Positions 3,741 to 51,286 of a stretch of 64,000 nucleotides of DNA are shown in pieces. A program made the position numbers and the translations under genes. Origin of the DNA: Bacteroidales bacterium (GTDB taxonomy: Bacteria > Bacteroidota > Bacteroidia > Bacteroidales > P3); the NCBI GenBank assembly GCA_017550405.1, contig JAFZPH010000042.1, positions 1 through 64,000 on the forward strand, read 5' to 3'. The stretch's first letter is position 1, and each line of letters starts with the position of its first letter. Below the pieces are notes generated by a model, which was not told the DNA's origin, ran no database searches, and worked only from the letters and a program-made list of their open reading frames with translations.

Positions 3741-4550
3741 GTGGTGAGAACAATCCAAATATCATTACCCAACAGCCCCGACAATTTCCTGTTGGTGGAG
3801 ATGTGCGAGCGGCTGAAGGCCGGCCAAACAGTAACCATGCTGTTCGGCGGCGACAGCATGCTGCCCATGATTAACGGCAACGGCGACAAGATCAGGCTCC
3901 GCCCCCTCGATGCCGACGAGAAGTGCATCCCGGGGAAAGTGTATCTTTTCTTCGACGGGAACCACTATATCATCCATCGACTGATGAGGATAAGCAACGG
4001 TGTGTACGATTTCCGGGGCGACAACTGCTACAAGCACGAGCATGTCCATCGCCAGGATGTGCTTGCACAGCTGATGACCGTGATACGTCCCAACGGCGAG
4101 GAGGTGGACTGTGAGGGCGAATGGTGGACAAAACGTTCGCGCAAGGTGGTGCTCCGCCGCACCGTGAAGAACACCGTGGCCAAAGTGGCCAACCGGAAGG
4201 CTCGCAAGCGCTGGGCAGTGCTGTATTTCGTGCTGCTGGCAGTCTTGATGTGGGCTCCCCTCAACGGATTGGGGCTGCCGCTCAACAATTTTATATTCGG
4301 TTTGCGACTGGACCATCTGCTGCACGGCCTGGTGTTTATCCCCTGCGCTTTCTTCTTGATGGATTTCCTCAAGCGGCGCAAACTCTTGATCCTTGTTCTG
4401 GCTTTGGTGATAGGCCTTTTCACCGAATTCGTACAGTATCTGTTGCCCTACCGAGGGTTCGATCTCAATGACCTCGTGGGCAATGGTCTTGGAATCCTTT
4501 TGGGCTGGATTGCTATTATGCCATTCCTGTTGCGTCACCCTAAATATTAA
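3741..4550 (+). CDS. S24/S26 signal-peptidase-like protease fused to VanZ-like membrane domain
   Basis: 269 residues beginning with a GTG (a second GTG follows immediately). The N-terminal half carries GGDSMLPM with the candidate nucleophile Ser39 and YIIHRLM with His79, the Ser/His arrangement of Sec11-type S26 peptidases rather than the Ser/Lys of LepB; RGDNCYKHE follows. Residues from about 150 hold four hydrophobic segments and the VanZ-like pattern (LDHLLHGLVFIP, FTEFVQYLLPYRGFDLNDLVGNGLG). The gene starts 17 bases after the HprK-like kinase and ends 18 bases before a glycosyltransferase. It plausibly cleaves an exported or membrane substrate of this operon; the substrate is not identified. 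Confidence 0.75.
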   Translation: MVRTIQISLPNSPDNFLLVEMCERLKAGQTVTMLFGGDSMLPMINGNGDKIRLRPLDADEKCIPGKVYLFFDGNHYIIHRLMRISNGVYDFRGDNCYKHEHVHRQDVLAQLMTVIRPNGEEVDCEGEWWTKRSRKVVLRRTVKNTVAKVANRKARKRWAVLYFVLLAVLMWAPLNGLGLPLNNFIFGLRLDHLLHGLVFIPCAFFLMDFLKRRKLLILVLALVIGLFTEFVQYLLPYRGFDLNDLVGNGLGILLGWIAIMPFLLRHPKY

Positions 4551-9550: not shown

Positions 9551-10042
9551 ATGCAGGATTTTGCAGCCATAGACTTCGAGACGGCCAACGGCGAGCGCAG
9601 CAGTGTATGCAGCGTCGGGGTGGTGGTGGTGCGTGACGGCGAGGTGTGCGACCGCTTCTATAGCCTCATCCAGCCCGAGCCGAATTACTACACGTGGTTC
9701 TGCCAGCGTGTTCACGGCTTGGGTCCCAGCGACACCGACAGTGCCGAGGTGTTCCCCAAGGTATGGGCGCGGGTGGCTCCGTTGATTGAGGGGCTGCCCT
9801 TGGTGGCCCACAACTCGCCTTTCGACGAGGGTTGCCTCCGTGCGGTGATGCGGGTGTATCAGATGGATTGGCCTGATTACAGGTTCTACTGCACTTGCCG
9901 GGCGGCACGCCGCAAGCTGAAATTTCTGCCCAACCACCAGCTTCACACAGTGGCCGAAGCCTGCGGCTACAATCTCAAGAATCACCATCACGCCTTGGCC
10001 GACGCCGAGGCCTGTGCCGCCATTGCCATCCAGTTGTTGTAA
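9551..10042 (+). CDS. DnaQ-like 3'-5' exonuclease (DEDDh)
   Basis: 163 residues. The ExoI motif is AAIDFETANG (Asp and Glu), ExoII is LVAHNSPFDEGCL, and ExoIII is HHALADAEACA with the DEDDh histidine. It is a stand-alone exonuclease domain related to the DNA polymerase III epsilon subunit. In Bacteroidetes such short proteins occur apart from polymerase genes and their targets are mostly undefined. It lies 34 bases after the phospholipase-D-like gene. Confidence 0.88.
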   Translation: MQDFAAIDFETANGERSSVCSVGVVVVRDGEVCDRFYSLIQPEPNYYTWFCQRVHGLGPSDTDSAEVFPKVWARVAPLIEGLPLVAHNSPFDEGCLRAVMRVYQMDWPDYRFYCTCRAARRKLKFLPNHQLHTVAEACGYNLKNHHHALADAEACAAIAIQLL

Positions 10043-10101
10043 TTACAGCTGGTTTCACGGCTTCCGTACTTCTTACGTTAGGCGTCGAGAATCAGTCGCG
10101 C

Positions 10102-10202
10102 CCTTCAATCATGGCTCGTTAGTGGATGCTTACAGCATTGTTATCCGATATATTGACGGATAACGATACTGTTTCGATGCTGTTTCGATGCAGGATTGAA
10201 CG
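10102..10202 (+). repeat. 101-bp element with terminal inverted repeats, copy 1
   Basis: The element starts cCTTCAATC and ends GATTGAACG. It aligns without gaps, over its full 101 bp, to the reverse complement of 34100-34200; shared blocks include TGGCTCG near the start, TTGTTATCCG in the middle and CGATGCAGGATTGAACG at the end. A hairpin GTTATCCG/CGGATAAC sits in the centre, and the right half has an 11-bp period (GATACTGTTTC, GATGCTGTTTC). It lies between the exonuclease stop and the convergent yidD end. It could be a small non-autonomous mobile element or a structured regulatory element. Confidence 0.75.
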
Positions 10203-10231
10203 ACGTTAGTGCGGAATGGCTGCCGTGGGGT

Positions 10232-10516
10232 TCAGGGCACGGGGTCGTAGCCCGAGCCGCCGAAAGGGTTGCAGCGCAGGATGCGCTTGAAGGCGAGCCA
10301 TCCGCCTTTGAGGGGACCGTGCTTTTTGATGGCTTCGACGGCGTATTGCGAGCAGGTGGGGGTATAGCGGCAGGTGGGCGGTTTGAGGGGCGAGATGCAG
10401 GTACGATAGAACCAGATGAGGGCCAGCATCACCTTCGACAGGAGGGTCATAAGGAGCTGGTAAAGGGCGTAAACCCCTTTGCACAGGGTGTTCCAGATGG
10501 CGGCGAGGGCGTTCAT
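10232..10516 (-). CDS. yidD: YidD membrane protein insertion efficiency factor
   Basis: 94 residues starting at the ATG that overlaps the rnpA stop by four bases (ATGA); the frame continues upstream but only as an rnpA shadow. The diagnostic [20 protein letters not shown] segment and GGSGYDPVP end are present, with one N-terminal amphipathic or membrane helix. YidD helps the YidC insertase place proteins in the inner membrane. The rnpA-yidD order is conserved in many bacteria; rpmH and yidC are not in this window. Confidence 0.95.
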
Positions 10517-15811: not shown

Positions 15812-18800
15812 ATGAAACATCTAAGGTTACTATTGGTTTTGGCTGCGGTGCTACTGCCGTTCGCCGTGGGTGCTCAGGTGTATGTGAGCGATTATACGTT
15901 CAGTTCGTACACCTCGTCGTTCACCTCCATTTCTTCTACTGGGACAGAGTTGTCGCTTAACTTACTCAATTCATCCCAACAAATCACGCTGCCCTTCACA
16001 TTCCCCTTTGGGCAGGAGAGCTGCACCACGTTGACAGTGGGTTCTAACGGCCAGATAGGTATTGGCTCGGCCAATCCGTCGTCGGGTTCTTCCTACAGTG
16101 CTCATACTACAGACATGAGCATTATCTCGCCGTTGGCGGCAAATTATAATATGAACCCATACCAGGACGGCACAGGCCATGTGTACTACGAGATAAGAGG
16201 GACAGCCCCCAACCGCAGTGTGGTGATTGAGTATAACGACCCGGCCATCGACACTACATTGTCCAACACCTTAATATTCCAGGCGGTGTTGTATGAGAAT
16301 GGCGACGTGGAGTTTATCTATGACACTTGCCAGTTGGCAACAGCCAGGACGGTGTATGTCTTTATGCGCGAGCATACTGCCAATAAGGCGGTCAGCATCA
16401 CGGGTTCCTGGTCGGCCCCTACAGTCTCTCAAACGATAGCAGCACGCAGCATCTCCTCTTCCAGTTTCCCTGCCCAGGGCCTCACGCTTACCTTTAGCCG
16501 CGAAGAAAGAAGCTGCCTGCGTCCCCTTAACTTTGTTTGCCGTTCGTCAGCACGTGTCGACAGCGTCTATCTGGCATGGAATCCCGCTCCCGCCACAGGC
16601 ACATGGGAACTGCGCTACGACACTGTCGGCACCCCTGTCGACAGCATGCAGCATATCCAGCAGTATATCACCGATTCCTTCTATGTGTGTACCGACTTGT
16701 TGGCAGGTGGAGTGTATGAGGCTTATCTGCGTACCGACTGTGGTACCGAGATGAGTTTCTGGGAAGGGCCTGTCCTTATCACTCCTGGTGCATACAATAT
16801 GCCTGCCACAGGATATAACACCATCTATGCCTGCGGTGGTACGATATACGACGACGGTGGTCCCACGGGCAATTATTCCCCCAGCTGTAATTCCACTCTG
16901 GTGGTGATGCCCTCGTCGGTGGATTCGGCGGTGGTAATGGACATCGATTTGAATACCGAGTCGGGATATGATTATCTGTATATCTTTGACGGTATTGGTA
17001 CAACCGGTACGCCCCTATACCAAGGTGCCGGTGGACCTACAACTGTTCAGAACATTAGTTCCTTGTCGGGTCCTTTGACCGTCCAATTTACCTCTGACCC
17101 CTCTGTCCAGCGGGCCGGTTTCGCCCTTTCAGTCAGATGTGTGGAGGCTCCTCGCTGCAGGGTGATCACCCAAGTCGATATTTCACATGTCGCAGGTGCA
17201 TCGGCCTATCTTAGTTGGACACTTGCCGGCATGATGCTTATGCCGTCGGAATACTTGGTTACACTTTACAACCGCACCGACCCGTCACTGCCTCCTATTG
17301 TCTACAGTGCTACCGAACGCTACTATTTCTTGTCCGGTCTGGCTCCGCAGACCGATTATATGGCCACTGTGTCCAGTGTCTGTGGCGAAGACACAATCTT
17401 TGGCGACTCCGTCCATTTCAGGACCTTATGCCTCTCGGGTGGAATGTCGAACCCCTCGGGGGTATCCAATCAGACCATCACGGGTGTGCCAGTATACACT
17501 TCCTATGGTAATACATTTTGCCAGAGTATCTATACCGCTGCCGAGTTGAGCGCAATGGGTGTAAGGCCCGGTCCCATCACAGGTATCACCTATACATGGG
17601 CCTCAGCAGGGTCATATACCAAGGACATAGTCATCTTCCTGGGGCAGACAAACAACTCATCATTCAGCAGTTTCTCCCCGCTTGCAGGATGCATGACCCA
17701 GGTCTATTCCGGCACCCGTACCCCCTCCGATATTGGCTTGGTGGAATATACCTTCAACACTCCCTTTATGTGGGACGGTGTGAGCAACCTCGTGCTGTCG
17801 TCCTTCGTCAACCAACCTGCCGGCGAGAGCCATTACTCCTCCAGTTTCAACGCATACAATTCGAACTGCAATGTGGCTCGCACCATCTATGGATATAAGG
17901 ACAACGTGGCTTATACCACAAGCAATATCAATTCAAATACCAGCACTAACATCAGTACCTACCGCCCCAATGTCCAGTTCGTCAATCCTTGCGACTCGTT
18001 AGCCACCTGTGTGGTGCCCAACGTGTTTATCACCGAACAGACATCCGATAGCGTGAAGCTGATATGGGCTCCCGGCAATACCGAGACGGCATGGGATGTG
18101 AAATACCGCGCCGAATCCGATACGAACTGGACCGTTGTCTACAGCAATACCAGCCTGACCAGCTGCGCCATCGGCAACCTTGCCCCTATGACAACCTATC
18201 AGATACGTGTCGTCCCCAACTGTGGAGCTGACAGCGTCGCAGCAATACTCTCGGTGACAACTCCCTGTTCCTATATTATGGAACTTCCTTTCACCGAGGA
18301 CTTCGAATCCTTCACGGCATCGTCCACAACCGGTTCTCCCATCACTCCATGCTGGCATCGTGGAACCAATTACACCTACTCCAGCTACCCCTACCTCACC
18401 ACCACTACTCCCTATAGCGGTACCTACTGCATGTATTTCTATGGTGCAGCCAACTACCATTCCTACCTTGCCTTGCCGGGCATTGGCCACGACATGGACA
18501 GCCTGCAGATAAGCTTTGCCGCCCGTTTCACCTCAAGCAATTACATACTCAAGGTGGGTGTTATGACCGACCCCGAAGATGTGAACACCATTACCCAGGT
18601 GGCTACTGTCTCTCCGACCGCCACCAGCACGTGGGAACTGTTTGAAGTGCCGCTGGCCTCGGGCGGTGACCACGGACAATATATCGTCATCTATGGCAGT
18701 GGCGCGCTCAGCTATTTCTTCCTCGACAACATCGAGGTGAACTATCTCCCCAGCTGCCAGCGTCCTCGCCAGATTACTTCCAGCAACATCACCACCACCA

Positions 18801-21800
18801 CCGCCTCCCTGCATTGGTCTGCACCGGGTGCCAACTATTTCGAGATTGAATACGGTCCTGCAGGCTTTGCTCATGGCACAGGCAACATCGTCACCAGTTC
18901 CGCCGACAGCGTCACCCTCTACGGTCTTAACCACTCCACGCGCTATGAGGTTTATGTCCGTGGACTTTGCACGGCCACCGACACCTCCTTCTGGTCCTTC
19001 CCCCATTATTTCAACACCGACTGCGATGAGATAGACATGCTGCCCGTCTCCTTCACATTTGCAGGTTATGGCACCGGTTCGGGCGTGGTACCCAACTGTT
19101 GGCTGTGCGGAGGTTACAGCTCTTACCCTTACATCACTGTTGCCACCCCCACAGGCGGTCTTCCCACTCCGGCTCTCTACATGTACACCTATAGCGCCAA
19201 CGAGACCTATGCTTCCCTGCCCCGTTTGGACAGTGTGACCTACCCAGTCAATATTACACAAGTCTACTTTAGGGCATGGACATCCTCCTCCATCAATGAT
19301 TGCTACATTGTGGCCGGTGTGTGCGCCCAGCAGGGCGACCTATTAAGCTTCACGCCTGCCGACACAGTCGTCGTGACCAATACGCCCACCCTCTTCGAAG
19401 TGGCCTTCGACAATTTGGCAGGTGCGGGTACATACATCACCCTCGTCTCCTCTACACTGGGCGGTACCTCCTCTAATCCGGTCTACATCGACAGTGTCGC
19501 CATCGACCTCATTCCCTCCTGCCAGAAGCCTAACCACCTCCATTCTGTAGCCGTCACCGCCACCACTGCCGACATAGCCTGGAACGAGCGCAACCTTGCC
19601 ACCACCTGGGAGGTGGAATACGGCAGCCACGGCTTTGTGCGCGGCACCGGCACCCGTCTCACCACCACTTCCAATCCCCTCTCTCTCACAGGGCTCAATC
19701 CCTCCACCTCCTACGACTTCTATGTCCGGAGCATTTGCTCCACAACCGACACCTCCGATTGGTCCATCGATGTAGGCAACTTCAACACACGCCAGAACCC
19801 CGGAGCAATACCCTATTTCTACGATTTCGAAAGCCCCTTGGAGTGGGAGAACTGGCAAACCAACAGCAATACCAACGTCAACTGGTATCGCGACACAGCC
19901 GCCACCGATGGCACCCCGGGCTACAACACCGGCTGCTACTACTCGATGTTTGTCTCAGCCGATTCGGGACGCACCTATAGCACCGACCTCAACCAGGTGG
20001 TCAATACTGCGGCCTACCGCGACTTCGACTTCGGCCCCGTCGACTCCAGCTTCACCCTCACCTTCCGCGCCCGTGCCGGTGGCACCCCCTCGGCAGGCTA
20101 CGATGCCCTCATGGTCTTTTTGGTCGACCCCAACATCCCCGTGGTGGCTTCCTCGTCCAACATCACCTCGCCCTGGGGGAATGTCAACGACCTCACCCCC
20201 CTGGCCACCGTCCGTGTCAGCAGTTACTGGAACACCTATAACGTCACCCTCGATGCTATCTCGGGCGTCCATCGCCTTGCCTTCTTCTGGTTCAACCAGT
20301 CCACCGCCAGCACACCCTACCAGGGAGGTCCTGCCGCTGTCGATAATATCAGTATTGATTATGTCGCCTGTCCGCGACCTGCCAATGTAAATGCCAGTCA
20401 GGTCAGCATGACCACTGCCACTATTGAATGGGACGGTGACCCTGTGACGGCCGACTATCGCTTCTACTGCCGTTCGGCAATGGGTGTCACTGCGGCTGAA
20501 GGATTAATCCATACCAACAGGATACACATCACCAACCTCGACCCCGGTACCCGTTACAACATGGTTATACGCCGCCTCTGCAGTGCCACGGACAGCTCCA
20601 CACTGTCGCTCAATTACTCGTTCGTCACCAGACCGTGCAACGACGGGTTTATCGACTCCTTGGGCGACCCCTCCTCCACTTCCACCACTTATCTGATTCC
20701 CACCAACAACTATTGGAAGTATTCCTATTGCCAGCAAATCATACCCGCCAGCGAGATTTCCGGTCCCGGCGAGATTTCGGCCATCAATTTCAGGTATGCC
20801 TACAGCACAGCCACAACTGTCAAAACCAACTGCACCATCTATATGGGTCATACGTCGCTCAACAGTTTCGCCGACGTCAATTCCTTTGTCGCCCCCGACA
20901 GCATGCAGTTGGTCTATATCGGCAACCTTAACTGTACCTCCGGGTGGAACCGCTTCTTGCTCAACTACTCTTTCAACTACAATGGTGTCGACAACCTTGT
21001 CATCGCCATCGACGACAACAGTGGCGAATTGCACTCCACCTCTTACACCTTCTACATGTCGCCCACTACCGACATTAAGACTGTTGTCTTCTACTCCGAC
21101 ACTCAGAACCCCAATGTCACTTCGCGTACAACACTCAACCAGTTCCAAGGCCAGTCGCAGGCTCTTGCATACATCAACCAGATGGTGATCGAGCTCTGCC
21201 CGCCCACGCTCTGCCCCACACCCATACTCTGCGAGCCTATCATCCGTCCCGATTCGGTCACACTCCGTTGGCGCAATACAGGCCGTTCCTATCAAGTAGG
21301 GTATCGTCTGAGTACTTCCAGCAGCTGGATAGTCAACAGCTTATCGGTCAGCGACACCTTCTACACCATCCACAACGTCTTCCCCATGACCGACTACGTA
21401 TACCAGGTGCGCCAGTATTGCGACAGCACCGGTGTTTCCAACTGGGCACTGGGTTCCTTCAACTCCGGCGACATCCCCTGCTTGGAGCCCACCGGACTGC
21501 AGGTCTCCACGGTCACTCACAACAAGGTGACCCTCCGCTGGACACCCGAGGAGAACCATGTTTCTTACCGTGTGCATGTCTTTAACAGCTCCCTTGACAA
21601 GTACGTCAGTAGCTACCTTTCCAACAAGACCGTCACAGGCCTCGAGGCCAACACCACCTATTACGCGTCTGTACAAGCCAGCTGTCAGGACATGGAAGAC
21701 CCCAGCCAGTGGACCGACACCATCTCCTTCACCACCGATTACTGCCCCGATGCCACCAACCTCAGATACTCCGACCTCCAGGGCAACAGCGTTGTGCTTG

Positions 21801-22285
21801 ACTGGACCGAAGGAGGACGTGCCACCCAGTGGGAAATAGAGTATGGCTATGCCGGCTTCGACCAAGGTACCGGCTTCTCGGTGGTGACCGACTACCATCC
21901 CTACACCCTCACCGGTCTGATTGGCGAGAGTACCTATGACATCTATGTCCGTGCCATCTGCGGCAATAACTTCTACAGCGAGAACTGGTCCAACGTTGTC
22001 ACCATCACCACGCCCTTCAGCAGCATCGACGGTGTCGGCGACGATGCCCGTGTCAAGCTCTCGCCCAACCCCACCAGCGGCGATGTCACCATCGAACTCC
22101 CGGCCACCAGCGGCTCGGCCACTGTCGAGGTGCTTGACGCCACCGGCCGTGTTATGTTCAGCACCACCCTCACTGCGGGCACCGAGACGGCCCTCCTCAA
22201 GACCTCCCAGCTGGCTCAGGGTGCTTACTTCGTGCGCCTTACGGGCGACAGCATCCACGCCATCAGGAAACTGATAGTACGCTAA
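15812..22285 (+). CDS. Giant multidomain T9SS surface protein (FN3/CUB/choice-of-anchor-like modules)
   Basis: 2157 residues with a signal peptide (MKHLRLLL to VGAQ). Modules in order: an N-terminal beta domain (about 25-225), FN3 (230-330), CUB-like domain (334-446, YDYLYIFDG), FN3, an unnamed domain of about 180 residues (539-724), FN3, MAM/choice-of-anchor-J-like domain (814-980), FN3, two more anchor-like domains each with an FN3, a second copy of the unnamed domain (1608-1796), three FN3 and a T9SS sorting domain from about 2079 (SPNPTSG to RKLIVR). Many FN3 copies carry the signature EYGxxGFxxGTG. It is exported by T9SS and attached to the surface; adhesion or substrate binding is inferred. 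No catalytic motif is visible. Confidence 0.85.
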   Translation: MKHLRLLLVLAAVLLPFAVGAQVYVSDYTFSSYTSSFTSISSTGTELSLNLLNSSQQITLPFTFPFGQESCTTLTVGSNGQIGIGSANPSSGSSYSAHTTDMSIISPLAANYNMNPYQDGTGHVYYEIRGTAPNRSVVIEYNDPAIDTTLSNTLIFQAVLYENGDVEFIYDTCQLATARTVYVFMREHTANKAVSITGSWSAPTVSQTIAARSISSSSFPAQGLTLTFSREERSCLRPLNFVCRSSARVDSVYLAWNPAPATGTWELRYDTVGTPVDSMQHIQQYITDSFYVCTDLLAGGVYEAYLRTDCGTEMSFWEGPVLITPGAYNMPATGYNTIYACGGTIYDDGGPTGNYSPSCNSTLVVMPSSVDSAVVMDIDLNTESGYDYLYIFDGIGTTGTPLYQGAGGPTTVQNISSLSGPLTVQFTSDPSVQRAGFALSVRCVEAPRCRVITQVDISHVAGASAYLSWTLAGMMLMPSEYLVTLYNRTDPSLPPIVYSATERYYFLSGLAPQTDYMATVSSVCGEDTIFGDSVHFRTLCLSGGMSNPSGVSNQTITGVPVYTSYGNTFCQSIYTAAELSAMGVRPGPITGITYTWASAGSYTKDIVIFLGQTNNSSFSSFSPLAGCMTQVYSGTRTPSDIGLVEYTFNTPFMWDGVSNLVLSSFVNQPAGESHYSSSFNAYNSNCNVARTIYGYKDNVAYTTSNINSNTSTNISTYRPNVQFVNPCDSLATCVVPNVFITEQTSDSVKLIWAPGNTETAWDVKYRAESDTNWTVVYSNTSLTSCAIGNLAPMTTYQIRVVPNCGADSVAAILSVTTPCSYIMELPFTEDFESFTASSTTGSPITPCWHRGTNYTYSSYPYLTTTTPYSGTYCMYFYGAANYHSYLALPGIGHDMDSLQISFAARFTSSNYILKVGVMTDPEDVNTITQVATVSPTATSTWELFEVPLASGGDHGQYIVIYGSGALSYFFLDNIEVNYLPSCQRPRQITSSNITTTTASLHWSAPGANYFEIEYGPAGFAHGTGNIVTSSADSVTLYGLNHSTRYEVYVRGLCTATDTSFWSFPHYFNTDCDEIDMLPVSFTFAGYGTGSGVVPNCWLCGGYSSYPYITVATPTGGLPTPALYMYTYSANETYASLPRLDSVTYPVNITQVYFRAWTSSSINDCYIVAGVCAQQGDLLSFTPADTVVVTNTPTLFEVAFDNLAGAGTYITLVSSTLGGTSSNPVYIDSVAIDLIPSCQKPNHLHSVAVTATTADIAWNERNLATTWEVEYGSHGFVRGTGTRLTTTSNPLSLTGLNPSTSYDFYVRSICSTTDTSDWSIDVGNFNTRQNPGAIPYFYDFESPLEWENWQTNSNTNVNWYRDTAATDGTPGYNTGCYYSMFVSADSGRTYSTDLNQVVNTAAYRDFDFGPVDSSFTLTFRARAGGTPSAGYDALMVFLVDPNIPVVASSSNITSPWGNVNDLTPLATVRVSSYWNTYNVTLDAISGVHRLAFFWFNQSTASTPYQGGPAAVDNISIDYVACPRPANVNASQVSMTTATIEWDGDPVTADYRFYCRSAMGVTAAEGLIHTNRIHITNLDPGTRYNMVIRRLCSATDSSTLSLNYSFVTRPCNDGFIDSLGDPSSTSTTYLIPTNNYWKYSYCQQIIPASEISGPGEISAINFRYAYSTATTVKTNCTIYMGHTSLNSFADVNSFVAPDSMQLVYIGNLNCTSGWNRFLLNYSFNYNGVDNLVIAIDDNSGELHSTSYTFYMSPTTDIKTVVFYSDTQNPNVTSRTTLNQFQGQSQALAYINQMVIELCPPTLCPTPILCEPIIRPDSVTLRWRNTGRSYQVGYRLSTSSSWIVNSLSVSDTFYTIHNVFPMTDYVYQVRQYCDSTGVSNWALGSFNSGDIPCLEPTGLQVSTVTHNKVTLRWTPEENHVSYRVHVFNSSLDKYVSSYLSNKTVTGLEANTTYYASVQASCQDMEDPSQWTDTISFTTDYCPDATNLRYSDLQGNSVVLDWTEGGRATQWEIEYGYAGFDQGTGFSVVTDYHPYTLTGLIGESTYDIYVRAICGNNFYSENWSNVVTITTPFSSIDGVGDDARVKLSPNPTSGDVTIELPATSGSATVEVLDATGRVMFSTTLTAGTETALLKTSQLAQGAYFVRLTGDSIHAIRKLIVR
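17428..17985 (+). repeat. Unnamed ~180-residue domain, copy 1 (within the 15812 gene)
   Basis: Encodes the segment with YGNTFCQSIYTAAEL, DIVIFLGQTNNSSFSS and FMWDGVSNLVLSSF. The same layout (xxxIYxGxTxxxxF, Val/Asp-Ser-Val-Tyr-x-Gly, GW, GxxNLVxxxDDN) recurs at 20635-21200, 26328-26850 and 29490-30050, so it is a repeated module of these two proteins. Confidence 0.6.
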
Positions 22286-22814: not shown

Positions 22815-25800
22815 ATGAGAAAAGTCTTAATCCCTCTGCTATTGGCAATCATGCTATTGCCGGCAGTAGTGCAAGCGCAGCTGACGCTGCCTTACACAAC
22901 AGGTTTTGAAGGACTGACAACTGGACAACTGCCTACGGGCTGGTCGCAGTTGCAGTCGGGCAGCAGCGGCTCGGGTACTTTCCCGGCCGTGTACCAGTAC
23001 GCAAACAATGCCCGCAACGGCAGTGTGTACTTCGAGTTTGAGAGTACCACTGGCCAGACGGAGCTTGCCGCACTGCCCGTTGTGAGCGATGTCTCTCAGC
23101 TCCAACTCTCCTTCTATGCCTCTGTCATGAACCACAACTTCCTGTTCGAAGTGGGCGTGATGGACAGCACCACGTTCGAACCTGTTGATACCATCGCCTT
23201 GACCGTCGGCAGCGGCGGCAACTGGCATGGTTCGTACAACCAGTACACGGTTTACTTTAACAACTACACTGGTTCAGGCAACCGCATGGCCATGCGCGTC
23301 ACCTCTTCCGGCAGCTACACACTGATGATCGACGACCTCGAGATTGACTATATCCCCACCTGCCCTGCTCCCACCAACTTCGCTGCAACAGGCAGCAGTG
23401 TTGACTGGATTACCCTTAACTGGCAAGAGAACGGCGTGGCTACGGCCTGGGTGGTTGAATACGACACTGTACCTATTCCCGCTTCACAGCTGGGTCTAGG
23501 TGTAGCCGGTCAAGAAATGGTGTCGGGAGTGCCTGGCGTTACCATTAATGGTCTTGACACCGCTACGACCTACTATTTCTATGTCTATGCCGACTGCGGC
23601 GGCGAATACAGCACTGCCGCTTCGTTGACTGCCACCACCCTGGCAGCTCTTCCCGCCGAAGTGCCCTACAGCTGCGACTTCGAGCAGGATGGTCCCAATG
23701 GTTGGGATCTGATCAATGGTTCGCAGACCAACAAATGGTGTGTAGGCAGCGCCACCAACAATGGCGGCAACCAGAGCCTTTATATCTCCAACGACAATGG
23801 CACCTCAAATAGCTATAGCACTGGCAGTACCTCTTACACCTACGCTGTCCGTTCCTTCGACCTGACCGACTCTGGCGAATATGCCTATGGATACGACTGG
23901 AAGTGCCAGGGCGAAAGCCACTATTACGACTTCTGCCGTGCATTCCTTGCACCTGCCACCTATCAATGGACTGCAGGCACGAATCCTGCAAATGGCACCA
24001 ATGCCTTTGCGTCATGGTCAATGCCTTCCGGCTGGATTGAGTTGACCGAGGATTTCTCTTCACCTCGCACCATGTCTCAGTCAAGCAACTGGAGAACCGT
24101 CACGGGTACATTCTATATCAGCACCCCCGGCACCTACAGCATTGTCTTTGCATGGGCCAACGATGCCAGTGGTGGTAGCCAGCCCCCCATGGCAGTCGAC
24201 AATGTGTTCTTGACACGCAACACCTGCCCTGGCCCCAGCAACTTCGCTGCAACAGGCAGCAGTGTTGACTGGATTACCCTTAACTGGCAACAGAACGGCG
24301 AGGTTACGTCCTGGGTGGTTGAATACGACACTGTGCCTATTCCCGTTTCACAGCTGGGTCAAGGTGTAGCCAGTCAAGAAATGGTGTCGGGAGTGCCTGG
24401 CGTTACCATTAATGGTCTTGACACCGCTACGACCTACTATTTCTATGTCTATACCGACTGCGGCGGCGAATACAGCATAGCCGCTTCGTTGACTGCCACC
24501 ACCCTGGCAGCTCTTCCCGCCGAAGTGCCTTACGCCTGCGACTTCGAGCAGGAGGGCCCCAATGGCTGGGAGCTGATCAATGGTTCGCAGACCAACAAAT
24601 GGTGTGTGGGCAGCGCCACCAACAATGGCGGCAACCAGAGCCTTTATATCTCCGACAACAATGGCACTTCAAATAGCTATAGCACTAGCAGTGACTCTTA
24701 CACCTACGCTGTCCGTACTTTCGACCTGACCGACTCTGGCGAATATGCCTACGGATATGACTGGAAGTGCCAGGGCGAAAGCCACAATTACGATTTCTGC
24801 CGTGCATTCCTTGCTCCTGCTTCCTATCAATGGACTGCAGGCTCGAATCCTGCAGGTGGCACCTATGCCTTTGCGTCATGGTCAATGCCTTCCGGCTGGT
24901 TTGAACTGACCGAGAACTTCTCTTCTCCTCGCACCATGGCTCTTTCAAGCAGCTGGAGAACCGTCACGGGTACATTCTATATCAGCACCCCCGGCACCTA
25001 CAGCCTTGTCTTTGCATGGGCCAACGACGCCATTGGCGGTAGCCAGCCCCCCATGGCAGTCGACAATGTGTTCTTGACACACAACACCTGCCCTGGTCCC
25101 CTCAATCTGACAGCCTCCTATGTTGCCAACGACACCGTCGTCATCACTTGGCAGCCCGGTGGCTCCGAGAGCAGCTGGATTGTCAGCGACGGTGTGAACA
25201 GCTATGATGTGTACGACACCACCTATCTCTTCGAGGGTCTGATGCCTGCCACCAACTACAATTTCCACGTCTACGCTCTCTGCGATGCTGGCGACACCAG
25301 CCTACCCGCAACCGTGTCTGTCCGCACTCCTTGCAGTGAATTCGGTCCTCTGCCTTTGAGCGAGGACTTCGACAGTTATGCTGCGAACAGCTATCCCGAC
25401 TGCTGGACACGCATACTGAACAGCAACAACTACCCCTACATGACCTCCGACTATGGCATCAGCGTCAAGTTCGGTGGCGGTGCTTCTGTTTTCAGCCCCC
25501 GCATTCCCGCTCCGCTGAACACCCTCTTTGTCGAGTTCGACCTGCAGCGCGAGGGCAATTCTTCCGGCACCATGGAGTTCGGCTACACAAGCAATCCCAA
25601 CTCGATTGACAGCATGGTTGTGCTTCAAACCATCTATCCCGCCAATACCTACCAGTATTATCACTACGAGTTCGACCTCTCCGCCGACACTTGCTCTGAC
25701 AGCGTCTATCTGGTGTGGCATCAGGATGGTACCTCCAACTGGTACTACTGGTTGGACAACGTCTCCATCACTCGTGCCAGCACCTGCCCCGCTGTGGTGA

Positions 25801-28800
25801 ACCTGCGCTGCAGCTCCCACACCAACCACGAGGCATCCATTGTTTGGTCCGACACCAGCAACTCGCACATCGATGTGATGCTTTATATTGCCCAGTCCAA
25901 CAACATCGCCGCTGCTTTCGACAGCGTTGTTGTCAGCGGCAACTCTTACACCTTCACCGGTTTGAGCGGCAACACACATTACTATGTCTGGGCAAGAGCC
26001 AACTGCTCCGATGGCAGCAGCCGTGAGGTCCTCTGTGAGTTCACCACCGATGTGAACTGCGCACCTGTCGAGAACCTCCGTGTGGTGGCCACCGACTATC
26101 ACGCCTTCGGTCTCAACTGGGAGGCTCCCACCGCTGGCGATCCTGTCACAAACTACATTGTCAGCTATCGTCTCTCCGGCGAATCCTCGTGGATTTCGGA
26201 CACCGTTAGCGACCTCTATTACTATATTAGCGGACTGGACACCAACCATACTTACCAGTACCGTGTCACCACCATCTGCGATACGTTGACAAGCGCCATC
26301 ACTAGCGGTACTGTCACCACTATGGGTTGTGCCCGCATGATAACCAACGGCGGCACTACCAATAGCTACCTGCCCACCTATATATACTATGGTTTTTCCT
26401 ACACACAGCAGATTTACCTCGATGCCGAAATAGGCACCGGCATGGACACCATTACTGCTATCTCATTCTACGCTTCAAGCTCGCTCTCGTCGCGCAATAT
26501 CGATCTCTATTTGGGCAACACCGACCAGTCTTCATTCTCCAGCACCGGCAACTATATCCCGGTCGACAGCCTCTCGCTTGTCTACACTGGTACGTTTAGC
26601 GGCACTGGCTGGATTACCCTGAACTTCACCACTCCGTTTGTCCGCACCGCCGGCCGCAATCTGGTTGTGGCAATGGACGACAATACCGGCAATTGGGTGA
26701 GCAGCATCGCGTATGCTGCCACTTCGGCAAGCAACCGTTCCATCTATTTCTATCAGGATGGTACCGACATTAATCCTGCTTCGCCCAGTGCCAGCAACTC
26801 CAGTGTCGTTAGCTACGTCAACCAAATCAAGCTGAATCCTGCCTCCTGCCACATCCCCACATGTAACTCTCCTGTGGTAATGATTGCCAGCACAGAAGGT
26901 ACACAGGTTAACTTGGTATGGAACAACGAGCCCGGCAGAACCTACACCATTGAGTATCTCCGCGAAAATACCACCAACTGGGTTGTGTTCGATTCCACCA
27001 ACACCACCGGTGCTTGCAGCGTCACTGGCCTGTTGAGTGGCTACAGCTACACCTTCCGCGTCAGCTTCGACTGCGATGGCGACCTCCTCTCCGGCACCGT
27101 TCAGAGCCGCGCTGTCTGCGCTCCTGTGGCTCTGCCCTACACCGAGGACTTCGAGAATCAGAGCGGTCTCTACAGCCGCAACTGCTGGTACACCGGCAGC
27201 ACCAACCTCGGCACATCTTATCCCAACCCCATCGTCGTCAACCTCGAAGGCAACCCCAACAAGTTGCTCCTTCTCTACAACGGTGCTTATGTCATCCTGC
27301 CCGAAATGGATGCTCCGCTCAACCAGCTGCAGATCCGTTTCAACTTTGTTCAGGGTGCCAACAATACGCGTCTCATCATGGGTGTTATGGACGATCCCAC
27401 AGCTCCCATTTCCACCATCCATCCTATCGACACGCTCATCCGCTCCGACTACGACACCTCGGCCTACGCCTATGTCATCTATCCGCTGGACGGTATCAGC
27501 GACACCGCAGGTCATCTCGCCTTCTGGGATGCCTTCAACGACAACTACAGCTTCCTCGACAACATCGTGGTGGAATACATCCCCAACTGTACCAATGCCT
27601 CCGATGTGGTTGCCAGCAACGTAACAACCAACTCCGCCACTATCAGCTGGACTGGCAGTGCCAATGCCATCAGCTACTTGGTTGAGTACGGTTCCCGCGG
27701 CTTCACTCCCGGCACTGGTACCACCGTTACCTCTGCTACTAACAGCATCGCCCTTACCGGACTGAATCCCGGCAGCAGCTACGAGGCTTACGTCTACGCC
27801 ATCTGTGCCAATGACACCTCTATTGCTTCACAGGTCTGCAACTTCACCACTGCTTGTGCAGCCATCACAGCACTGCCCTACACCCAGAACTTCGAGAACA
27901 TCCTCGGCCCCGGCGACAACTCCGCCAACGTTGTTCCCAACTGCTGGGCTTCCGCTTTGCTGCCCGAAGGTGCCGGCCACGAGGTGCCTCACGTGTTCTA
28001 CAACACCGACCTCGGTCACGCTCCCTCGCCGCAGTACTGCTTCTACTTCGAGGGCATCGGCATCGCCGCTCTGCCTGAGATGGGTGTGCCGCTGGATTCG
28101 CTCATGATTTCTTTCCACGAGTGGAACAGCAACCCCAGCAACTATGGCCTTATCATCGGTGCTGTCGACAATACCGATTCCGGTTTCGCCTCCAGCTTCC
28201 AGCCCATCGACACCATCCCCTTCGTTGGTACCGATAACCAATTCGATGTGGTCTCCATGCTGAATGGATACACCGGCACCGCCCGTCACATAGCCATTGC
28301 CTCCTACAACATCGCTGGCAGTGCCTATGCCGACCAGTATCTCGACAATCTCGTCATCGACCGTATCCCCAACTGCATTGCTCCTATGCGTGTAGAGGCC
28401 ACTGCGTTGACCAATGTCTCTGCCGACCTGGCATGGCAGTTCAGCACCGCAGCCAACTACAGCATTGAATACGGCGTCCATGGTTTCACTCCCGGTACCG
28501 GCACCACCGTTACCAGCACCACACGCACTGTCAGCCTCACCGGTCTGACACCCTATACACAGTACGATGTCTACCTGACCAGTGTCTGCAGCCCCGCTGA
28601 AACCAGCGACACCACCTTCTTCACCTTCACTACCCTCCGTGGCGCTCCTGTCACTACATATCCCTATGTCTGCACCTTCGCCGATAGTACTGAGGCCAAC
28701 GCTTGGGAACCCGTCAACGGCAGCCAGACCAACAAGTGGTATGTAGGCACCGCCGCCCACTACGGCACTGTCGACAATATGGGTCTCTACATCTCCGACA

Positions 28801-31424
28801 ACAATGGTGTCAGCAACCAATATACTATTTCTTCCGCCTCCTTCACCTATGTCTACCGCACCTTCACTTTGAATGTCGGTTCCTACAACATCGGCTTCAA
28901 CTGGCAGGCCCAGGGCGAAAGCAATTATGACTACCTCCGTGCATGGCTCGCCCCGGCCGACTTCGAGTTCACTCCCGGTCAGACACCCGACGGTGGCACC
29001 GATTCCTACGACTACACCAGCTCCAATCCCGCTGGTTGGATACCGCTCGACGGTGGCTCCAAGCTGAACCTCCAATCCAGCTGGCAGACCGCTAGCGAAG
29101 ATGTGGCCATCACCACAGCCGGCAACTACAACCTTGTGTTCATGTGGGCCAACGACGGTTCGATGGGTACCAATCCTCCTGCTGCCATCGACAATGTGGA
29201 AGTCTATCTCAACACCTGCCCCGCTCCTGTGGAAGTTTCAGCCAGCTCAGCCGGCTCCACTTATATTGACCTCGACTGGACCGACTTGGCTCCTGCAGTC
29301 TCCTGGCAGGTTGAGTACGGCCCCAGCGGCTACAGCCGTGGCACAGGTACGCTGCTCAATGTCACCAGCCATCCTGTCAACATCAGTGGCCTCGACACGC
29401 TGACCCATTACGACTTCTACATCCGTCCCATCTGTTCCGGTGCCGATACTGGCCGTTGGAGCCGTCCTGCTGCCCTCAGCACTGCTATGTGCGACAACTC
29501 GCAGGTCTTTGCCCTCGGCTCCAGTGCCTCTACGGGTACCTCCTATTATTTCCCTGTCAACAACTACTATAGATACACCCTTACCGAGACCATCATCGAC
29601 AGTGCTGAACTCAATGGTTCCATGGACATCGAATACATTGGCTACTACTACGACTACTCCTCACCTTCGACTGCGAAGACCAACTGCACCATCTATTTCC
29701 AGCCTACCGCCAAGACCGTCTTCACCAGTTCAAGCGATATGGTGGCTCTTGATTCCGCCACAGGTGTAAGAGTTTACACAGGTTCTCTCAACTGTACTCA
29801 GGGATGGAACTACTTCCAGCTCGACACCGCCTATCACTACGACGGCACCGGCAACCTGCTGGTCATTGTCGACGACAATAGCAATGACTACGACGGAATA
29901 GATTACGTCTTCAAGACACAGTCCTGCACAGGCTACAAGACCATCCATTACTATAACGACACCGATAACCCGGATGTTACAGATCCCTCAACATTCTCCA
30001 CTAGCAAGAGTTATGAACAGGCCCGTCCCGTCATGCAGCTTATCAGCTGTGCAGGTGCCGGATGTCGTAAACCCATCATCGTAAGTACAACCTACGACTA
30101 CGAGAGCGCCACCATCACCTGGTCCGGCAATGGCACCAACTACGAGGTCAACATCAAGGAGACTGCCTCCGACTGGCCCGCCACCGACATTCCTGTTGTT
30201 GGCAACACCTACACCTTCACGGGTCTCATGCCTGCCACCAACTACACCTTCCGTGTACGTCAGGATTGCAGTGCCGACTCACTCGGCTACAGCGAATGGG
30301 CCTTAGGCAACTTCATCACCGACAGCCTGCCCTGCCTCGCTCCCACCAACCTGAGCACTACCACCGTCACCAACGCCACTGCCACCTTCGACTGGACCGT
30401 CCGTGGTACCGAAACCGCATGGGACATCCATGTATGGAACACCGGTAATATTGACAGCATCTACACTGTCACCACTCGTCCCGCTACTGTCGGTGGCTTC
30501 ACTGCCGGCCTTACCTACAATGCCTCTATCCGTCCCCTCTGCGGCTCGGCTCACAACATCGTAGGCGACTGGGGTGACACCATCACCTTCTCCACTACCA
30601 TCTGCCCCACAGTCACAGGTCTTACCGTAGGCAATGTCACCGCCAACGGTGCCACCCTCAACTGGGATGCCGACCAGATGGCCGTGAGCTGGATTGTTGA
30701 ATACGGCTTCGCCGGCTTCGACCAGGGTTCGGGCACCATCGTGCCTTGCACCGCCAACAGCTTCAATGCCACCGGTCTGGAGTGCGAGACTTCCTACGAC
30801 TTCTATGTCCGCGCCGTCTGCGGCACCGACTGGACCAGCGAACACTGGACACGCGTCAGCTTCACCACCGGCGACTGCTCCGAGGCCTGCCTCGCTCCCA
30901 CCAATGTGGTTGCTACTGTTGACCTCAATTCCGTGACCGTCAGCTGGACTCCCGCCGAGGGCAACACCGCCTTCGAGGTTGAGTACGGCAACCGCGGCTT
31001 CAGCCACGGCAACGGTACCGTTGTCAATACCAACGAGCCCTCCACCGTCATCAACGGTCTTGAGTTCAACACCCAGTACGACCTCTACGTGCGTGCACTC
31101 TGCGGTGCTGACAACTACAGCCCCTGGACACCTGTCACTACCTTCACCACCGGCACCCAAGGCATCGACAATGCTGAAGGCGTCGCCTGCACCATCTTCC
31201 CCAATCCCACCAGCAGTGCCACCACCATCAGCGTGAGCGGCGTGAGCGGCAAGGTGAAGATTGAGGTGGTCGATATGAACGGCCGCACCGTTGCCTCCGA
31301 GACTCTCGAGTGCAGCAGCGACTGTCGCAAGACCATGGATGTTGACCACTTGGCTCAGGGTGCCTACTTCGTACGCATCACTGGCGAGAACGTCAACATG
31401 GTGAAGAAGTTGATTGTGCGTTAA
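22815..31424 (+). CDS. Giant multidomain T9SS surface protein (FN3/choice-of-anchor-like modules)
   Basis: 2869 residues with a signal peptide ending VVQAQ. It is a paralogue of the preceding giant gene: alternating FN3 modules (EYGxxGFxxGTG signature) and MAM/choice-of-anchor-J-like modules (pattern DFE...GW, ending DNVxxxxxxCP). An exact tandem duplication of 288 residues covers about 182-470 and 470-758. The unnamed ~180-residue domain occurs at about 1171-1345 and 2225-2415. The last 75 residues are a T9SS domain (FPNPTSSATT to VKKLIVR). It is exported and surface-attached; binding to host or environmental polymers is inferred. There is no enzyme motif. A terminator follows at 31467. Confidence 0.85.
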   Translation: MRKVLIPLLLAIMLLPAVVQAQLTLPYTTGFEGLTTGQLPTGWSQLQSGSSGSGTFPAVYQYANNARNGSVYFEFESTTGQTELAALPVVSDVSQLQLSFYASVMNHNFLFEVGVMDSTTFEPVDTIALTVGSGGNWHGSYNQYTVYFNNYTGSGNRMAMRVTSSGSYTLMIDDLEIDYIPTCPAPTNFAATGSSVDWITLNWQENGVATAWVVEYDTVPIPASQLGLGVAGQEMVSGVPGVTINGLDTATTYYFYVYADCGGEYSTAASLTATTLAALPAEVPYSCDFEQDGPNGWDLINGSQTNKWCVGSATNNGGNQSLYISNDNGTSNSYSTGSTSYTYAVRSFDLTDSGEYAYGYDWKCQGESHYYDFCRAFLAPATYQWTAGTNPANGTNAFASWSMPSGWIELTEDFSSPRTMSQSSNWRTVTGTFYISTPGTYSIVFAWANDASGGSQPPMAVDNVFLTRNTCPGPSNFAATGSSVDWITLNWQQNGEVTSWVVEYDTVPIPVSQLGQGVASQEMVSGVPGVTINGLDTATTYYFYVYTDCGGEYSIAASLTATTLAALPAEVPYACDFEQEGPNGWELINGSQTNKWCVGSATNNGGNQSLYISDNNGTSNSYSTSSDSYTYAVRTFDLTDSGEYAYGYDWKCQGESHNYDFCRAFLAPASYQWTAGSNPAGGTYAFASWSMPSGWFELTENFSSPRTMALSSSWRTVTGTFYISTPGTYSLVFAWANDAIGGSQPPMAVDNVFLTHNTCPGPLNLTASYVANDTVVITWQPGGSESSWIVSDGVNSYDVYDTTYLFEGLMPATNYNFHVYALCDAGDTSLPATVSVRTPCSEFGPLPLSEDFDSYAANSYPDCWTRILNSNNYPYMTSDYGISVKFGGGASVFSPRIPAPLNTLFVEFDLQREGNSSGTMEFGYTSNPNSIDSMVVLQTIYPANTYQYYHYEFDLSADTCSDSVYLVWHQDGTSNWYYWLDNVSITRASTCPAVVNLRCSSHTNHEASIVWSDTSNSHIDVMLYIAQSNNIAAAFDSVVVSGNSYTFTGLSGNTHYYVWARANCSDGSSREVLCEFTTDVNCAPVENLRVVATDYHAFGLNWEAPTAGDPVTNYIVSYRLSGESSWISDTVSDLYYYISGLDTNHTYQYRVTTICDTLTSAITSGTVTTMGCARMITNGGTTNSYLPTYIYYGFSYTQQIYLDAEIGTGMDTITAISFYASSSLSSRNIDLYLGNTDQSSFSSTGNYIPVDSLSLVYTGTFSGTGWITLNFTTPFVRTAGRNLVVAMDDNTGNWVSSIAYAATSASNRSIYFYQDGTDINPASPSASNSSVVSYVNQIKLNPASCHIPTCNSPVVMIASTEGTQVNLVWNNEPGRTYTIEYLRENTTNWVVFDSTNTTGACSVTGLLSGYSYTFRVSFDCDGDLLSGTVQSRAVCAPVALPYTEDFENQSGLYSRNCWYTGSTNLGTSYPNPIVVNLEGNPNKLLLLYNGAYVILPEMDAPLNQLQIRFNFVQGANNTRLIMGVMDDPTAPISTIHPIDTLIRSDYDTSAYAYVIYPLDGISDTAGHLAFWDAFNDNYSFLDNIVVEYIPNCTNASDVVASNVTTNSATISWTGSANAISYLVEYGSRGFTPGTGTTVTSATNSIALTGLNPGSSYEAYVYAICANDTSIASQVCNFTTACAAITALPYTQNFENILGPGDNSANVVPNCWASALLPEGAGHEVPHVFYNTDLGHAPSPQYCFYFEGIGIAALPEMGVPLDSLMISFHEWNSNPSNYGLIIGAVDNTDSGFASSFQPIDTIPFVGTDNQFDVVSMLNGYTGTARHIAIASYNIAGSAYADQYLDNLVIDRIPNCIAPMRVEATALTNVSADLAWQFSTAANYSIEYGVHGFTPGTGTTVTSTTRTVSLTGLTPYTQYDVYLTSVCSPAETSDTTFFTFTTLRGAPVTTYPYVCTFADSTEANAWEPVNGSQTNKWYVGTAAHYGTVDNMGLYISDNNGVSNQYTISSASFTYVYRTFTLNVGSYNIGFNWQAQGESNYDYLRAWLAPADFEFTPGQTPDGGTDSYDYTSSNPAGWIPLDGGSKLNLQSSWQTASEDVAITTAGNYNLVFMWANDGSMGTNPPAAIDNVEVYLNTCPAPVEVSASSAGSTYIDLDWTDLAPAVSWQVEYGPSGYSRGTGTLLNVTSHPVNISGLDTLTHYDFYIRPICSGADTGRWSRPAALSTAMCDNSQVFALGSSASTGTSYYFPVNNYYRYTLTETIIDSAELNGSMDIEYIGYYYDYSSPSTAKTNCTIYFQPTAKTVFTSSSDMVALDSATGVRVYTGSLNCTQGWNYFQLDTAYHYDGTGNLLVIVDDNSNDYDGIDYVFKTQSCTGYKTIHYYNDTDNPDVTDPSTFSTSKSYEQARPVMQLISCAGAGCRKPIIVSTTYDYESATITWSGNGTNYEVNIKETASDWPATDIPVVGNTYTFTGLMPATNYTFRVRQDCSADSLGYSEWALGNFITDSLPCLAPTNLSTTTVTNATATFDWTVRGTETAWDIHVWNTGNIDSIYTVTTRPATVGGFTAGLTYNASIRPLCGSAHNIVGDWGDTITFSTTICPTVTGLTVGNVTANGATLNWDADQMAVSWIVEYGFAGFDQGSGTIVPCTANSFNATGLECETSYDFYVRAVCGTDWTSEHWTRVSFTTGDCSEACLAPTNVVATVDLNSVTVSWTPAEGNTAFEVEYGNRGFSHGNGTVVNTNEPSTVINGLEFNTQYDLYVRALCGADNYSPWTPVTTFTTGTQGIDNAEGVACTIFPNPTSSATTISVSGVSGKVKIEVVDMNGRTVASETLECSSDCRKTMDVDHLAQGAYFVRITGENVNMVKKLIVR
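23361..25088 (+). repeat. 864-bp in-frame tandem duplication
   Basis: The sequence AACTTCGCTGCAACAGGCAG occurs at 23376 and again at 24240, a period of 864 bp (288 codons). The two units are nearly identical at DNA level over most of their length, each encoding one FN3 plus one anchor-like module. The close identity points to a recent duplication by recombination. Confidence 0.9.
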
Positions 31425-33935: not shown

Positions 33936-33948
33936 TAATCAGATTGAC

Positions 33949-33975
33949 CCCCAATCGGTCGTTAGGAAACCGAAA
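33949..33975 (+). repeat. Intergenic ATCGGTC motif, copy 2
   Basis: CCCCAATCGGTCGTTAGG then AAACCGAAAAC, 14 bases after the stop of the coiled-coil protein gene. Read in the direction of that gene it has the same orientation as the copies at 47316 (plus), 34494 (minus) and 51262 (minus). Confidence 0.55.
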
Positions 33976-34099
33976 ACGCCTACGGTCTAACTGCTGAACC
34001 GTGCAATGCGCTGAGGATCAACTCTGCCCCGTACCTTGTTCTGCCTACCCGCCCTGCGCCGTGGAGCGGCAACAATACCTCCTCGCTACGGAGAGGGGC

Positions 34100-34200
34100 C
34101 GTTCAATCCTGCATCGTTATTGTATTGTTATAGCATCGTTACTCGACATGATGACGGATAACAAGCCGAGAATCAGGCAGCATCGAGCCAAGATTGAACG
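34100..34200 (-). repeat. 101-bp element with terminal inverted repeats, copy 2
   Basis: Begins CGTTCAATC and ends GATTGAACG, a perfect 9-bp terminal inverted repeat. The whole 101 bp aligns without gaps, in reverse orientation, to 10102-10202. On the plus strand, three 11-bp units are seen near the left end (TGCATCGTTAT, TGTATTGTTAT, AGCATCGTTAC). The central hairpin is conserved with one mismatch and one G-T pair. Flanking sequences of the two copies are unrelated, as expected of a mobile or independently placed element. Confidence 0.75.
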
Positions 34201-34329
34201 ACCCAAGTGGGTTGTGGCGTGCCGACGGCTGAGACTTCCCGGCACTGCGGTGTGACAGGGGAGGCGTAGTGAGGGAGCAAAGGCTGGGCAGTGAAGGAGT
34301 GTGGAGGGCATTGTGGCGGGGTCGGAGTG

Positions 34330-34367
34330 TCCGTCGGATATATAAAATAAATTAGTCCGTCGGACTA
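34330..34367. repeat. Paired TCCGTCGGA palindromes
   Basis: TCCGTCGGA at 34330-34338 is followed by TAGTCCGTCGGACTA at 34353-34367, an odd-length perfect palindrome. The spacing is about two helical turns. Such paired sites can be protein-binding operators, but no gene starts close by on either strand. The stretch 34200-34490 otherwise shows only a small CCCCGTAGGGG hairpin near 34407. Confidence 0.35.
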
Positions 34368-34493
34368 TTCGCTTAATAGCAAACAATTATCGCACAACAT
34401 CAAATACCCCGTAGGGGTTTTCGATAAATGTATTTATAGAACCCACCATAAGTGTAAAGAGTGAATCGAGAGTGCGCTTATCCCGATTGAAAA

Positions 34494-34518
34494 GTCGGCC
34501 TAATAACCGATCTGGGTT
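34494..34518 (-). repeat. Intergenic ATCGGTTATTAGGCCGAC motif, copy 3
   Basis: Plus strand GTCGGCCTAATAACCGAT then CTGGGTT, directly beyond the terminator of the rubrerythrin gene in its direction of transcription. Confidence 0.6.
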
Positions 34519-51261: not shown

Positions 51262-51286
51262 GTCGGCCTAAGGACCGATTAGGGGA
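51262..51286 (-). repeat. Intergenic ATCGGTC motif, copy 5
   Basis: Plus strand GTCGGCCTAAGGACCGAT then TAGGGG, directly beyond the terminator of the M16 protease gene in its direction of transcription. The preceding bases (CAGACCTGAAA at 51232) match the flank of copy 1. Confidence 0.6.

Follow-up and report, generated by a model that had tools for sequence, protein, structure and literature searches.

Dispersed 101-bp inverted arrays on an 11-bp step, putative binding-site arrays for a DNA-binding protein in a Bacteroidales genome

Results

Two copies of the element in the window

The window, that is, the whole stretch of DNA analysed here, comprises the first 64,000 nucleotides of contig JAFZPH010000042.1 (Bacteroidales bacterium, assembly GCA_017550405.1). 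It holds two copies of a 101-bp element, the first of which lies in a gap between convergent genes for a 3'-5' exonuclease and YidD, whose stop codons are 59 bp and 29 bp away (Table 1). A preliminary description had aligned 10102-10202 with the reverse complement of 34100-34200 over 101 bp with no gap, and we confirmed this alignment, together with the ends common to both copies (including ...GATGCAGGATTGAACG) and the 11-bp period, which is read in the step TGTTTCGATGC TGTTTCGATGC AGGATTGAACG. A similarity of the region to a plasmid collection lies in the flanking genes and not in the element. Elsewhere in the window, 15812-22285 and 22815-31424 encode neighbouring, very large proteins (2157 and 2869 aa), which contain many fibronectin type III domains and carry a C-terminal Por secretion tail.

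Table 1. Positions of the two element copies and their surroundings in the window
Feature	Position	Strand	Evidence or remark
3'-5' exonuclease gene (RNase_T), upstream, convergent	9551..10042	+	
Type-A element copy 1, 101-bp inverted array	10102..10202	.	Alignment, 17-mer and profile matches; gap of exonuclease gene (+) and yidD (-)
Left terminal motif CCTTCAAT (family CSTTCAAT)	10102..10109	+	High-information columns
Central inverted repeat GTTATCCG-N9-CGGATAAC	10140..10164	.	Sequence
Right terminal motif ATTGAACG, left end inverted	10195..10202	+	Alignment and column information
Outer flank ACGTTAGTG, fits family outer motif A-N-G-TTAGTG	10203..10211	+	Family alignment
yidD, downstream, convergent	10232..10516	-	
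MITE-like composite repeat around copy 2, ends AACCCAGATCGGTTATTAG ... CTAACGACCGATTGGGG	33947..34518	-	Motif matches at both ends (34500-34516 and 33949-33965)
Type-B element copy 2, 101-bp array, left arm decayed, in MITE-like repeat	34100..34200	-	Alignment, 17-mer and profile matches

A dispersed family with two classes

The right-end 17-mer CGATGCAGGATTGAACG matched the 3.08-Mb draft genome (G000) 71 times when up to two mismatches were allowed, whereas the reversed control gave 0 matches. Three of the 71 (L059, L063 and L066) were chance matches with no element, and some elements were counted at both ends. A profile built from 24 sequences, both window copies among them, recovered these two copies at E ~1e-26, the match of copy 1 spanning 10095-10209 (E 8.5e-27). 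The 71 matches against none in the control and the profile E values rule out a chance resemblance of the two copies. The preliminary description had allowed that only two copies might exist genome-wide; instead, the family numbers at least 70 dispersed copies here.

Almost every extracted copy measured exactly 101 bp from terminal motif to terminal motif. Type A stands alone between genes, is diverse and includes copy 1, whereas type B, which includes copy 2, lies inside an unrelated MITE-like repeat and is bordered on each side by a long conserved flank. Type A was found at about 32 places and type B at about 38, these numbers and the total of at least 70 being counts among the matches listed. 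The two window copies, paired earlier as one element, do belong to the same family, but they represent different classes, copy 2 being embedded in a 572-bp MITE-like repeat. The extent of 101 bp also holds, except that in type A the conserved region extends about 8 bp more on each side (CTAACTT/AAGTTAG).

The element is an inverted array on an 11-bp step. In type A, the most informative columns were those of the ends (C-TTCAAT), of G-AT and of TT/AA pairs set 11 bp from one another (columns 18-19, 29-30 and 40-41), mirrored on both arms, and a shorter outer motif reads CTAAC/GTTAG. The information profile was symmetric with conserved columns at 11-bp spacing, and its autocorrelation peaked at lag 11 (+0.39 and +0.30 for the two arms), with a smaller rise at lag 14.

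The larger repeat around type-B copies is a mosaic with ends AACCCAAATCGGTCRTTAG, versions of which recur genome-wide. Its end motifs (CTAAYGACCGATTTGGG) occur in the window at 741-757, 33949-33965, 34500-34516 and 51268-51284 (4 matches, 0.03 expected), and those at 741 and 51268 stand without an array. Type-B copies are probably passengers in a MITE.

Phased columns and length are conserved in a sister species

We set 24 type-A copies against their positional counterparts in a sister species from rumen (G026), whose elements match the uncultured Bacteroidales MAG RUG264. Flanking identity was roughly 94%, and the pairs were drawn from loci fetched for holding elements, the shared fraction being a biased estimate of stability. 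High-information columns had changed in 7 of 671 cells (1.0%), as against 121 of 936 (12.9%) in low-information columns (P=7e-22) and 244 of 2800 (8.7%) in adjacent intergenic flanks (P=8e-16, Fisher); the column classes were set on a group of G000 copies overlapping that of the orthologs, and the substitutions scored are those between the species. Bootstrapping over elements placed the rate ratio of conserved columns to flank at 0.03-0.24. Gap openings numbered 1 per 2424 bp in type A and 15 per 2880 bp in the flanks (P=0.0015); the length of the element is nearly fixed. For six type-B copies compared in the same way, the constraint was not significant (phased columns 3.0% vs 6.4%, P=0.16).

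One more type-A copy, checked singly, was also present in G026, whereas shared presence at L277 is ambiguous, its neighbouring gene coming from a repeated family. Short stretches at L277:3870-3910 (TTGAAAATTGAAAG-like) and 4275-4320 have many matches in G026 and G062 and represent another kind of intergenic repeat.

Pairing between the arms is not under selection

A central hairpin had been proposed earlier, to be examined for compensatory changes. The inverted repeat is present, but its complementarity derives from the shared inverted consensus, and column statistics, arm swapping and pair counts revealed no compensatory base changes in the G000 copies. Arm-to-arm matches across columns were close to the expectation from column frequencies; 69.5% of positions were pairable between an element's own arms and 69.3% when right arms were swapped between elements; and the pair count showed less covariation than shuffles did, 458 of 500 shuffles reaching the observed pairing. 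Among double changes between orthologs, 1 of 14 keeps pairing, the shuffled expectation being 1.8. Because the phased columns are constrained, the length hardly varies, the arms change independently of each other and swapping keeps pairing, we conclude that what is constrained is the length and the helically phased bases of duplex DNA, and not a hairpin. Where a species has uniform units, its arms form near-perfect palindromes, and structure and sequence are then inseparable.

Elements mostly lie near the 3' ends of genes

Genes were called with a home-made codon-based caller. Eighteen G000 copies lie in tandem gaps, 8 in convergent and 4 in divergent ones, and one copy overlaps a predicted ORF. 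Of the 18 tandem-gap copies, 17 were closer to the 3' end of the upstream gene (P=1.4e-4; medians 53 bp to the stop and 203 bp to the start), and the same was seen for 12 of 14 in other species. The genes beside divergent-gap copies were ordinary, mostly metabolic and unrelated, with no recurrent DNA-binding neighbour, and a regulon of adjacent genes was rejected on this ground.

The architecture recurs in the genus with changed units

A sequence-only model matched 53 of 120 genomes of the genus (E<=0.01), and strong matches similar to the G000 family were found in G062, G071 and G113. The inverted architecture recurs on the 11-bp step with other units, mostly CGTT-N5-AT, in G123, G087, G065, G008, G114, G119, G079, G028 and G086, near-identical copies occurring in some species (G087); 11-bp inverted arrays with other units are also present in G019, G022 and G007. 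A model-free lag scan of 58 loci of the genus yielded arrays at lag 11 only (besides N runs), in six loci; among them, those of G019 and G022 lie just downstream of yidD and have quite different units. The same scan of 371 kb of unrelated bacterial sequence gave no such arrays at any lag. At locus L360 of G119, two 11-bp arrays stand close by beside other palindromes in a BIME-like mosaic.

In the rest of the order, 2 of 294 other genomes matched, G243 and G253. The first, from another family of the order, holds two step-11 arrays (L394 and L405), with a unit like CGTTNTAGCCT and the flank AGTAAAAGGAA common to both; the match in G253 does not look like an 11-bp array. When one genome per species was scanned for the exact pattern, full elements were found only in RUG264 and in a few contigs of RGIG2732 and RGIG6559, the element of RGIG6559 being truncated at a contig end. 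A phage origin was rejected on 19 viral-contig matches, which are without the element's left end. Searches of the open-access literature turned up no account of arrays of this kind.

Gain, loss and candidate mobilising functions

The exonuclease-yidD gap is without the element in G006 and G017, which indicates that gain or loss occurs; the length difference there is larger than the element, and no target-site duplication was recognised. Of 120 genomes of the genus, 73 have Y1 transposases, but searches of two element-rich ones, G028 (97% complete, 150 matches) and G087, found none, and therefore a RAYT is not required. This distribution rules out a dependence of the REP/RAYT kind, and no element among the matches listed for G000 adjoins any of its four Y1 genes. 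The element has terminal inverted repeats and no coding capacity, as a MITE has, its 11-bp step holding no reading frame. Among the matches listed for G000 and G026 there was no half-length match of an autonomous split-end partner, essentially all being full length.

Discussion

Several known repeats resemble the elements in part. REP, BIME and REPIN sequences are multi-copy extragenic palindromes, often species-specific, that lie in unidirectional or convergent gaps near 3' ends, REPINs being inverted doublets (PMC3733652, PMC3116915). The elements share with them the extragenic position, the high copy number and the placement mostly downstream of genes. Unlike the 20-40 bp palindromes of REP and REPIN, which have a dedicated RAYT (Y1) transposase usually flanked by the repeats, however, they are about 100 bp long with roughly 8 units on an 11-bp step, their arm pairing is not selected, they do not require a RAYT, and in G000 they end in CSTTCAAT/ATTGAACG with no unpaired GTAG/CGTC tag; CGTC stands at the start of one end in G123 only, inside the array. 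BrickBuilt, a MITE of Porphyromonas gingivalis, is intergenic, with 23-nt tandem units and small inverted-repeat ends (PMC4596501). Both are intergenic Bacteroidales repeats with internal units, but here the units are 11 bp, in two inverted arms of near-constant total length. PINSR, a 188-bp repeat of Prevotella intermedia, is high-copy and intergenic, at sites mostly shared by two strains, and its authors report no terminal inverted repeats (PMC4755523). It is lineage-specific, as the elements are, but only the latter have such ends. The parC centromere of the ParMRC system of plasmid R1 consists of 11-bp repeats, spaced near one helical turn and bound by a multimeric protein. Its repeat spacing is alike, although parC is confined to a single plasmid locus beside a par operon, and the elements are dozens of dispersed chromosomal copies.

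We consider it probable, though well short of settled, that the elements are binding-site arrays for a DNA-binding protein, with a REP/BIME-like distribution but outside the REP/RAYT definition. A chromosomal protein-binding array was one of three possibilities raised in the preliminary description, and it fits best, given the columns phased at 11 bp, the independent arms and the constraint at shared positions. Constraint on phased duplex bases and on length is what such an array predicts and what a hairpin RNA does not. Type A is an inverted array of about 4+4 units 11 bp apart, approximately one turn of DNA, so that the conserved CGTT of one arm and AACG of the other face roughly one side of the helix. 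Several protein subunits could then sit next to one another on the DNA, wrapping or bridging it, and the nucleoprotein knot formed just downstream of genes may insulate transcription or organise the chromosome. From this pattern we infer protein binding, a single multimeric factor whose specificity drifts among species, and a role for the complex. Against this stand the facts that no binding protein was identified and that the divergent copies neighbour ordinary metabolic genes, the lack of significance of the type-B constraint in 6 pairs, and the near-identical copies of G087, which would also fit selfish spread.

The elements might instead be selfish miniature mobile elements, MITE- or REPIN-like, with an enzyme that recognises the 11-bp array, no host function and another cause for the apparent constraint. 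The inverted-repeat ends, the restriction of families to the genus with species-specific sequence, the near-identical G087 copies, the exonuclease-yidD gap empty in two relatives and the carriage of type B in a MITE are all consistent with this, and to that extent the small non-autonomous element suggested earlier stands. We nevertheless regard it as rather unlikely, since at least 24 type-A copies, and the one checked directly, are in place in the sister species with their phased columns constrained, unlike inert insertions. In addition, the full-length matches listed offer no split-end autonomous partner, Y1 transposases were not found in two element-rich genomes, and no target duplication was recognised, the exonuclease-yidD gap differing by more than the element. 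A regulatory RNA, or a hairpin in the 3'-UTR, whose 11-bp step would be that of an A-form RNA helix, would account for a long inverted repeat near gene 3' ends and for the near-perfect palindromes of several other species. It is very unlikely: covariation was absent in G000 by three tests, the double changes between orthologs keep pairing no more often than shuffles, Rfam has no match anywhere in the window, no intrinsic terminator (G+C-rich hairpin with a T run) occurs at 9950-10350 around copy 1, and another copy lies directly 3' of a sequence with intrinsic-terminator form.

Within the binding-array reading, and as part of its probability, lies the special case of a protein-dependent terminator or insulator, a bound array that would stop RNA polymerase between genes. 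The 3'-end and convergent placement agrees with it, and the inverted symmetry would serve both strands. Four G000 copies in divergent gaps and the copy already placed after a terminator-like sequence argue against it, and we hold this role to be unlikely. A wider proposal can be offered only tentatively, as a possibility that we lean against: the putative binding arrays may be dispersed and helically phased genus-wide, keeping the 11-bp architecture while the unit changes with a multimeric DNA-binding protein, in a nucleoid, insulator or centromere-like system. If the binding-array reading is true, a group of uncultured Bacteroidales carries dozens of constrained, position-stable intergenic protein-binding arrays, and the fixed step with a changing unit would be a natural experiment in which a DNA-binding protein co-evolves with its many sites.
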